A stretch of DNA of 64,000 bases from Actinopolymorpha cephalotaxi. Its GTDB lineage: Bacteria > Actinomycetota > Actinomycetes > Propionibacteriales > Actinopolymorphaceae. Position 1 is the stretch's first letter. The number at the start of each line of letters is the position of its first letter. The stretch spans positions 496,001 to 560,000 of the forward strand of contig NZ_JACBZA010000001.1 in the NCBI RefSeq assembly GCF_013408535.1, written 5' to 3'. The position numbers were made by a program, and so were the translations under genes. The notes below the pieces were generated by a model. That model worked only from the letters and a program-made list of their open reading frames with translations, was not told the DNA's origin and did not search any database. This document shows, piece by piece, positions 10,142-11,558 of this stretch.

Positions 10142-10191
10142 GGTCTCGATCCACCGGAGTACCGACGTACTCACGTACTGACGTACGAACG

Positions 10192-10234
10192 AAAGGCGGC
10201 GGCCCGTCCTCACGAGGGACGGGCCGCCGCCTTT
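10192..10234. terminator. Bidirectional intrinsic terminator
   Basis: Perfect 18-bp arms 10192-10209 and 10217-10234 around a 7-base loop, with AAA/TTT at the outer ends. It sits between the converging aldo/keto reductase and GDT1-type genes and can serve both. Confidence 0.9.
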
Positions 10235-10258
10235 GTCGTTCCTACGTCGAGGGAAAGC

Positions 10259-10846
10259 TCAGCGCAGCTGGCTGATCGCCTCGATGAGCAGCCAGACACC
10301 GAAGACCGCGAACAGCGCCGAGGCGCCGTACCGGATCGTGCGTTCGGGCAGTCGCCGGCCGAGCTGCTGGCCGATCACGATGGCGATGGCGTCGGCGACC
10401 ACCATCCCGACGGTCGACCCGAGCCAGGTGCCCAGCCAGCCGTGCTGGGTGGCCAGGGTGATGGTGGCCAGCATCGTCTTGTCGCCGAGCTCGGCGAGGA
10501 AGAACGCGACGGAGACCGCGACGATCGCGGACTGCTTGGCCCGGCGGGCCTTCTGCTCCTCGTCCTCGGTGAGGCTGTCGCCGCGCAGTGTCCACCCGGC
10601 GAAGCCGAAGAACGCCAGCGCGGCCACCAGGGAGATCCAGCCGGTGGGCAGGTTCGCGCCGAGGAAGTAGCCGACGCCCACCGACACCGCGTGCACCACG
10701 GCGGTCGCGACGGTGATCCCGACGAGTACGGGGAGCGGGCGGTAGCGGGTGGCGAAGGTCAGGGCCATCAGCTGGGACTTGTCGCCGAGCTCGGCCACGA
10801 AGATGACGCCGAAGCTGAGGAAGAAGCTGGCGGTCAGGGCGTCCAT
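10259..10846 (-). CDS. GDT1/TMEM165 family (UPF0016) divalent cation transporter
   Basis: 195 residues, six predicted membrane helices in two homologous halves. Each half has the family signature: FVAELGDKSQLMAL near residue 17 and FLAELGDKTMLATI near 117. The middle loop is charged (about 90-105). Family members export or exchange Mn2+ (some also Ca2+). The leader carries a yybP-ykoY manganese riboswitch, so Mn2+ is the most likely substrate and expression should rise when Mn is high. A hairpin next to the start codon is the likely expression platform. Confidence 0.93.
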   Translation of the reverse strand: MDALTASFFLSFGVIFVAELGDKSQLMALTFATRYRPLPVLVGITVATAVVHAVSVGVGYFLGANLPTGWISLVAALAFFGFAGWTLRGDSLTEDEEQKARRAKQSAIVAVSVAFFLAELGDKTMLATITLATQHGWLGTWLGSTVGMVVADAIAIVIGQQLGRRLPERTIRYGASALFAVFGVWLLIEAISQLR

Positions 10847-10860
10847 GGGAAGTGTCGCTC

Positions 10861-10880
10861 CTCGATCAGGCCGGATCGAG
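10861..10880 (-). promoter_or_regulatory. Hairpin near GDT1 start, possible riboswitch expression platform
   Basis: Arms 10861-10867 and 10874-10880 (CTCGATC/GATCGAG) form a 7-bp stem. On the minus strand the 3' arm runs into GAGGAG, the only Shine-Dalgarno-like sequence, which ends about 8 bases before the ATG. Folding could hide the ribosome site, so translational control is an inference. Confidence 0.5.
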
Positions 10881-10918
10881 GAATGCGCGACCTCGACCCG
10901 GGCGTACTACTGCCTGGT

Positions 10919-11020
10919 CGAAGGTCTCGCCCGCCTGGGTGGAGGCTGCCGGGCCGGGCACCGCCCCTGCGGGGTGGCTGCCAGTGTGTCGACGACGGCA
11001 TTGGGGGCTACTCCCCTTCG
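10919..11020 (-). ncRNA. yybP-ykoY manganese riboswitch
   Basis: Read on the minus strand, the element opens with CGAAGGGGAGTAGC and closes with GGCGAGACCTTCG. These are the two conserved strands of the yybP-ykoY aptamer, and CGAAGG/CCTTCG form a perfect 6-bp P1. A conserved-like GTCGTCGACACACTG and internal GC-rich arms lie between. The element is 102 bases long and about 70 bases upstream of a GDT1-family transporter, a standard target of this Mn2+-sensing class. A covariance-model search was not possible here. Confidence 0.85.
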
Positions 11021-11028
11021 CGTCGTAC

Positions 11029-11057
11029 AGCCTGGCGCGGACCGGCACGATTGTCAA
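11029..11057 (-). promoter_or_regulatory. Promoter of the riboswitch-GDT1 transcript
   Basis: On the minus strand TTGACA (11052-11057) and CAGGCT (11029-11034) are exactly 17 bases apart, directly before the aptamer. The -35 is a consensus hexamer. The -10 keeps the A2 and T6 positions. Confidence 0.6.
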
Positions 11058-11144
11058 CCAGTTGCGCAAGTGACGAACTGTTGTGGGCCGGCTCACATCC
11101 GGCCGTTCCGCTCACCGGGCGGATACGGAAGAATCGGCGGCGTC

Positions 11145-11558
11145 ATGGTCAATCCAGCCGATCCGCCCTCGCCAACCGGGCAGTCTGTGACGTCCGGGTC
11201 ATCCGGGTCATCCGGGCTATCTGGGCCGTCCGGGCCGCAGCTTCGAGCGGCGGCGGAGACGTTCGACCTGCTGTCCTCACCCACCCGGCTGCACCTGGTG
11301 TGGCTGCTCGCCCGGCACGAGTACGACGTCGGCACGCTCGCGGAGAGCACCGGCGCCAACGTCGCCGCGGTCAGTCAGCACCTGGCCAAGCTCCGGCTGG
11401 CCGGCCTGGTGACCGCCCGGCGGGAGGGCCGGCGGCAGATCTACGCCGTGGAGGATCCGCACGTCCTCACCCTGGTGGACCAGATCTTCCAGCACATCGC
11501 CCCGGACGGCTCGCTGGCGCCGGACCCGCCCACGCCACGCCACCCGCGCCGCCCCTGA
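11145..11558 (+). CDS. ArsR/SmtB family winged-helix repressor, possible metal sensor
   Basis: 137 residues from ATG 11145. A Ser/Gly-rich N-tail (GSSGSSGLSGPSG, from a short DNA repeat) precedes the winged helix: FDLLSSPTRLHLVWLL, recognition helix VAAVSQHLAKLRLAGLV and wing ARREGRRQIYAV. Helix 5 has D104-x-H106-x10-H117-x2-P120, three of the four ligands of the alpha-5 metal site of SmtB/CzrA/NmtR; the fourth (His or Glu) is Pro. It may be a metal sensor or a derived form. It is divergent from the Mn-riboswitch transporter gene, and an imperfect inverted repeat in between could be its operator. Confidence 0.85.
   Translation: MVNPADPPSPTGQSVTSGSSGSSGLSGPSGPQLRAAAETFDLLSSPTRLHLVWLLARHEYDVGTLAESTGANVAAVSQHLAKLRLAGLVTARREGRRQIYAVEDPHVLTLVDQIFQHIAPDGSLAPDPPTPRHPRRP

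Follow-up and report, generated by a model that had tools for sequence, protein, structure and literature searches.

The leader of the GDT1/UPF0016 gene in the analysed stretch of the Actinopolymorpha cephalotaxi genome (64,000 nucleotides, hereafter called the window) very probably carries a yybP-ykoY (Mn2+) riboswitch without a P2 helix, which is located at the extreme 5' end of the exporter mRNA and is followed by a candidate relay switching translation on with Mn2+; we put the probability of this reading at about 93%. The initial annotation had proposed a promoter, an aptamer, a hairpin and a gene in this region, and all of these pieces are present on the minus strand at positions 11057–10858 (Table 1). 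Covariation, reciprocal matches and the kind of target genes support the interpretation of these pieces as a yybP-ykoY-type aptamer which has its own promoter and is joined to a translational platform in front of a GDT1-type gene. Sequence comparison establishes a conserved and covarying aptamer fold, homology to known Mn2+ riboswitches, the target gene and the conserved position of the promoter.

The gene behind the leader was confirmed as GDT1-type by its match to PF01169 and starts with an ATG at position 10846. Its product contains two E-x-G-D-K-(S/T) motifs, AELGDKSQ and AELGDKTM, in agreement with the E-x-G-D-(K/R)-(S/T) motif which defines the GDT1/UPF0016 exporter family (PMC7380456). 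A strong G+C-rich inverted repeat (AAAGGCGGCGGCCCGTCC ... GGACGGGCCGCCGCCTTT) at positions 10190–10246 of the window separates the GDT1 gene from a convergent aldo/keto reductase gene and looks like a two-way terminator.

Table 1. Features of the GDT1 leader and its surroundings, in window coordinates.
Feature	Positions	Strand	Basis or remark
ArsR/SmtB-family metalloregulator gene, divergent	11145-11558	plus	NF033788, 82 bits vs. cut-off 55
Palindrome ACTTGCGCAACT, 12 bp	11060-11071		one mismatch to perfect repeat; 2 bases upstream of -35
-35 element TTGACA	11052-11057	minus	sequence; kept in genus and family leaders
-10 element CAGGCT	11029-11034	minus	17 bases from -35; aligns with TANNNT cluster of other leaders
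P1.1 5' strand CGAAGG (outer switch helix)	11015-11020	minus	fold, alignment, covariation
L1 5' strand GGAGUA	11009-11014	minus	GGGAGTAG in 77 of 78 rows of alignment A3
P1.2 5' strand GCCC	11005-11008	minus	fold, alignment, covariation
L3 loop ACACACU	10983-10989	minus	third base A10987 aligns with Mn2+-ligand adenosine
P1.2 3' strand GGGC	10929-10932	minus	fold, alignment, covariation
L1 3' strand GAGA	10925-10928	minus	alignment
P1.1 3' strand CCUUCG	10919-10924	minus	doubles within CCUUCGACC (strand 2, 10924-10916) as anti-P1 5' arm
Strand A GGUCGAGG	10891-10898	minus	pairs with strand 2 or strand B
Strand B CCUCGAUCC	10873-10881	minus	pairs with strand A or SD strand
SD strand GAUCGAGGAG	10858-10867	minus	contains AGGAG 10862-10858
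GDT1/UPF0016 gene, 195 aa	10259-10846	minus	PF01169, 156 bits vs. cut-off 27

Promoter and Aptamer Architecture

The promoter claimed for the leader, TTGACA and CAGGCT at a distance of 17 bases, was found exactly as described. Taken alone, CAGGCT is a poor -10 element, and it is located 18 bases 5' of GGGGAGTAG. When we aligned 79 leaders with 70 bases of upstream sequence, TANNNT motifs were found at offsets of -18 (n = 35), -19 (n = 19) and -17 (n = 8) from GGGGAGTAG, adding up to 62, and at most four occurred at any single other offset. Because this cluster covers offsets -17 to -19 and the CAGGCT of the window is at -18, the transcript start is expected within a few bases of P1.1. The position of the promoter is conserved across the leaders.

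The predicted aptamer extends from position 11020 to 10919 of the minus strand, which is exactly the proposed length of 102 nt, and the outer helix P1.1 (CGAAGG/CCUUCG) deserves its description as perfect, with six base pairs and no mismatch. Both of the conserved strands named for it, GGGGAGUAG and GCGAGACC, are present. As is required for the class, an internal loop L1 with the strands GGGGAGUAG and GAGACC lies between P1.1 and P1.2, and the P3 arm contains an asymmetric L3 loop of 7 nt with an invariant adenosine. In all 77 genuine rows of alignment A3 (see below), L3 starts with ACA, the commonest versions being ACATACT (37 rows) and ACACACT (26 rows). The corresponding loop of the Xanthomonas oryzae aptamer comprises residues A48, U49, A50, C51 and U52 (PMC6754395), and the site of the Lactococcus lactis aptamer residues U39, C40, A41, U44 and C45 (PMC9190785). 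The third L3 base of the window, A10987, aligns with the Mn2+-ligand adenosines A48 (X. oryzae) and A41 (L. lactis) and would be their equivalent.

The order of the elements, P1.1, L1, P1.2, P3.1, L3, P3.2 and P4, is the same as in the crystallised aptamers of X. oryzae and L. lactis, which also have the invariant adenosine as third L3 base. Unlike the element described here, those aptamers have P2 as part of a four-way junction and control transcription termination. Neither P2 nor a four-way junction is found in the 77 genuine rows, where only 7–9 nt connect P1.2 to P3.1; this linker is too short for a P2 helix and argues for a three-way junction. The loss of P2 was considered as a new architecture and rejected because the alx riboswitch of E. 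coli is likewise P2-less, which indicates that P2 is not a class-defining element.

Unconstrained minimum-energy folding of the aptamer already yields P1.1, P1.2, P3.1, L3, P3.2 and P4. The folding energy of the aptamer alone is not better than that of shuffled sequences (z = 0.25; 113 of 200 shuffles fold equally well), and that of the whole leader lies somewhat beyond the shuffles (z = -2.07; 4 of 200 as good).

Conservation and Covariation of the Element

A search with the GDT1 protein resulted in matches in all six genomes of the genus, seven of eight of the family and 25 of 60 of the class (the lists overlap). The element was present upstream of the gene in 26 of the 33 GDT1 loci read as a first set, a number which includes the window itself and one sequence counted twice because genome G004 has it at two sites; the seven loci without it code for distant GDT1 proteins scoring below 82 bits. 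An unbiased MAFFT alignment (A1) was prepared from 24 of the 26 rows, excluding the repeat (L010) and a near-identical sequence (L013), and RNAalifold returned P1.1, P1.2, P3.1, P3.2 and P4 from it. In this alignment, 96.0% of the cells are paired, eight of 20 pairs have changed on both sides, and none of 500 shuffles reaches the covariation score; the further pair types are less decisive, with 47 of 500 shuffles scoring as high.

A covariance model (R2) constructed from 17 of the 24 sequences, all from outside the family of the window, matched the element with 68 bits (E 4.3e-16), and the runner-up place within the 64-kb window reached 15.7 bits. Applied to 80 named GDT1 loci, R2 detected the element upstream of the gene and on the coding strand in 77, the three exceptions being L131, L134 and L137. 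Alignment A3 consists of 78 rows, including one chance match on the minus strand (L099, 20.8 bits) which was kept in its counts. It shows 98.6% paired cells and double changes in 10 of 23 pairs, compared to at most 50.9% paired cells in slid controls; because A3 was fitted to the R2 model, these values lean towards the structure. Altogether, covariation supports the helices P1.1, P1.2, P3.1 and P3.2, and it is weak for P4, with no double change on A3 and one on A1.

A second covariance model (R1), derived from actinobacterial GDT1 leaders only, matched two E. coli riboswitches at the leaders of their genes, alx with 28.5 bits (E 8e-6) and mntP with 22.9 bits (E 2e-4). The alx leader shares the P2-less aptamer and the strands GGGGAGUA and GUGAGACC with the actinobacterial elements; it differs in its TerC-family target, a longer P4, an L3 loop resembling UCAUUAC instead of the ACAYACU found here and an AT-rich downstream platform. 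The mntP leader has the same L1 strands, an L3 loop reading ACAUACU and Mn2+-induced translation (PMC9603457), as is proposed here, but it contains a P2 hairpin, visible as an insertion in the alignment, its target is MntP, and its protein regulator is MntR rather than an ArsR-type protein. The same kind of target as in the window is known from Vibrio, where a yybP-ykoY element is located upstream of the UPF0016/GDT1 gene mneA (PMC13274385); this case comes from another phylum, and its mechanism was left unsettled by the authors.

Performance of the Rfam Model RF00080

The expectation that the site would give a high-scoring match to RF00080 was not borne out, since no match was obtained there up to an E-value of 10; judged by the criterion of the initial annotation, this outcome would count against the claim. 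The model (copy of Rfam release 15) gave no match in the window at its gathering score of 45 bits, nothing at E ≤ 10 on stretches of 601 and 121 bases around the site, and nothing at the site at E ≤ 10 over the whole genome (6.86-Mb contig), where three weak matches appeared elsewhere. Searching E. coli K-12 with RF00080 yielded the validated mntP riboswitch with 41.6 bits, which is under the 45-bit cut-off, and alx was absent from the matches at E ≤ 1. Both are reported to be Mn2+-responsive yybP-ykoY riboswitches (PMC9603457). Because the model fails on these two validated members, we regard the test as unsound and dropped the missing match as evidence.

Below its threshold, RF00080 matches two other actinobacterial leaders of our set (L029 with 28.3 bits, E 7.6e-5; L018 with 23.6 bits, E 0.0019). 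Among 197 genomes of the class, it produced no match above the cut-off and seven at E ≤ 0.01, five of which (in G008, G027, G106, G111 and G128) coincide with places recognised by R1. At the same limit of E ≤ 0.01, R1 matched 112 of the 197 genomes, some of which had also contributed training sequences to it. These data are evidence that RF00080 is nearly blind to yybP-ykoY riboswitches in the sampled genomes of the class Actinomycetes. Leaders belonging to RF00080 have already been published for terC of Corynebacterium glutamicum and two other cases (PMC3890552), and our search of open-access papers found no actinobacterial Mn2+ riboswitch linked to GDT1.

The silence of RF00080 at the site and the chance-level folding energy of the aptamer are what one would expect of a chance resemblance or of a leader which is no riboswitch, such as a bare SD hairpin or a protein-binding leader. 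This explanation is contradicted by the conservation, the covariation, the position at the transcript start and the reciprocal matches with validated riboswitches, and we consider it extremely improbable.

Target Genes and the Sensed Ion

Searching the entire genome containing the window with R1 resulted in three matches, the element described here (86.7 bits) and two others with 42.6 and 40.8 bits. These two further copies are located outside the window (L038, 1501–1591, and L039, 1501–1612), each directly in front of a TerC gene (PF03741). We also picked 40 weaker R1 matches from the class-wide listing and checked the genes downstream by tblastn, then by Pfam. According to tblastn, 31 of them precede a TerC relative and three a divergent GDT1 relative. 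The other six precede genes for MntP, an Na/Ca exchanger (a group to which YrbG is related), a PGPGW protein, a GreA/GreB protein and, in two cases, proteins without a Pfam match; four of these six matches are thus in front of genes without a known link to Mn2+. Known yybP-ykoY targets comprise GDT1/UPF0016, TerC, MntP and, in Vibrio, yrbG (PMC13274385). The PGPGW membrane protein and the two Pfam-less proteins behind weaker matches (L180, 189–518; L169, 586–1461; L182, 211–1074) may represent new Mn2+-linked genes or chance matches. In the leaders of the Na/Ca exchanger and MntP genes (L172 and L187), we observed extra sequence between P1.2 and P3.1 which possibly forms a P2 hairpin, unlike in the GDT1 leaders.

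The element therefore occurs, as expected for its class, in the 5' leaders of genes for Mn2+ homeostasis. It is conceivable that the fold was kept and another ion or signal is sensed, for example alkaline pH, Ca2+ or Co2+/Ni2+, since E. coli alx is also affected by alkaline pH (PMC9603457) and the Pfam name of the GDT1 proteins designates them as divalent cation/proton antiporters. However, the adenosine aligned with the Mn2+ ligand and the ACA start of L3 are invariant in every genuine row, and TerC, MntP and GDT1 constitute the known Mn2+ set (PMC13274385), which makes such a change of ligand quite improbable. We infer that Mn2+ is the ligand of the aptamer in the window.

Expression Platform and Proposed Mechanism

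The claimed SD hairpin, CCUCGAUC/GAUCGAGG, was found with its 3' arm running into AGGAG, 11 bases before the start codon. The predicted stabilities of the hairpins in the window are -17.3 kcal/mol for the anti-P1 hairpin (strand 2 with strand A), -10.7 kcal/mol for A:B and -11.5 kcal/mol for B with the SD strand. This arrangement of strand 2, A, B and the SD strand looks like the anatomy of a relay, and the model-based tests of that relay gave mixed results.

An anti-P1 helix of at least 8 bp is present in 74 of 78 leaders, compared to 6.3% of shuffled sequences, and E. coli alx likewise forms an anti-P1 hairpin from its P1 3' strand and the stretch following it. Within the helix, the A-U pair at position 7 (61 leaders) is replaced by G-C in 10 leaders, and the C-G pair at position 8 (62 leaders) by U-A in 9; these changes were counted inside the longest helix, so unpaired cells within it cannot appear. 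With strand 2 free, 69 of 79 leaders are predicted to sequester the SD. One leader with an L1 strand of CAAGAC (L142) was mis-cut in the SD and shuffle counts based on 79 leaders and is omitted from those based on 78; another (L139) is absent from the folding counts on SD opening. In simulated nascent RNA, A:B pairing became stronger upon withdrawal of strand 2 in 69 of the 78 leaders and weaker in none, and the pairing exceeded the mean of the leader's own shuffles in 74 of 78 leaders, which are related rather than independent sequences. Because strand A is defined by its pairing with strand 2, this definition gives A:B no advantage. In the window, A:B pairing is nearly equal either way (9.6 vs. 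10.4 expected pairs). If strand A was instead defined by a sequence pattern, which misplaced it in some leaders including that of the window, the real A:B pairing amounted to 4.46 vs. 4.87 in shuffles.

In equilibrium folding, the SD of the window remained paired even with P1 forced. Forcing P1 has a predicted cost of approximately 10 kcal/mol relative to free folding of the window's leader, which likely exceeds what metal binding can repay at equilibrium. Over the whole set, withdrawing strand 2 at equilibrium led to an SD opening of more than 0.1 in 15 of 78 leaders and to a closing in five. Equilibrium folding was therefore rejected as proof of the switch, with SD opening not reproduced in the window and mixed over the set. 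Because P1 and the anti-P1 hairpin are mutually exclusive, the choice between them most likely falls while the RNA is being transcribed rather than at equilibrium; given the closed SD at equilibrium, the relay, if right, would have to be decided co-transcriptionally.

The small Mn2+-dependent change of SD pairing in equilibrium folding, together with the common occurrence of transcription-acting members among the known riboswitches of the class (PMC6754395), could also mean that the aptamer is real and acts mainly on transcription, by attenuation or via Rho, instead of on SD access. The sequence between the aptamer and the ATG, however, lacks any hairpin with a run of Ts behind it, and SD sequestration is predicted in most leaders when strand 2 is free, and we regard a mainly transcriptional action as unlikely, if still the strongest competitor of a translational switch.

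For the preferred translational switch, we propose that Mn2+ binding would hold L1 and L3 together and thereby stabilise P1.1, an effect of Mn2+ on P1.1 which is known from PMC6754395. Formation of P1.1 would withdraw strand 2 from strand A, and the free strand A would pair with B as soon as B is made, leaving the SD strand free and translation on. Without Mn2+, strand 2 would take A and B would take the SD strand, turning translation off. The sign of the response, with Mn2+ turning translation on, is inferred by analogy from the known members and from the strand architecture; in E. coli, Mn2+ turns on translation initiation at the mntP leader and activates an alx reporter (PMC9603457).

A Divergent ArsR/SmtB Gene and a Palindrome at the Promoter

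Upstream of the GDT1 promoter, a divergent gene codes for an ArsR/SmtB-family protein. Its residues D104, H106 and H117, which would belong to an alpha-5 metal site, are invariant in all eight homologues, and the same letters are aligned in SmtB, where we take them to be metal ligands; the position of the fourth SmtB ligand is occupied by a proline (P) in the protein of the window. The palindrome next to the -35 element is a putative operator of this ArsR/SmtB-type gene, judged from its sequence and position. The motif TTGCGCAA was detected upstream of GDT1 in exactly those 11 of 87 loci which have an ArsR gene, and neither occurs there singly. Removal of three repeats leaves eight distinct loci, seven of which belong to the family of the window and one to Allonocardiopsis, so phylogeny explains much of the co-occurrence. 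Near-copies of the palindrome are also not rare, with nine places in the genome at one mismatch or less.

A combination of protein and riboswitch control has a precedent in E. coli mntP with its regulator MntR (PMC9603457). We tentatively suggest, as a possibility we consider rather unlikely at present, a two-tier control in Actinopolymorpha, in which an SmtB-type ArsR repressor, possibly Mn2+-responsive, would act at the palindrome near the -35 element and a co-transcriptional P2-less riboswitch relay (P1.1 3' strand, A, B and SD) would follow. If this were true, ArsR would gate transcription and the riboswitch translation of GDT1.

Implications

Annotation pipelines depending on RF00080 would, in many actinobacteria, overlook the control of GDT1 and TerC genes by Mn2+. 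Among these riboswitches, the GDT1 subgroup offers a compact aptamer with a three-way junction and a conserved translational platform, on which the docking of a P2-less Mn2+ switch may be studied.
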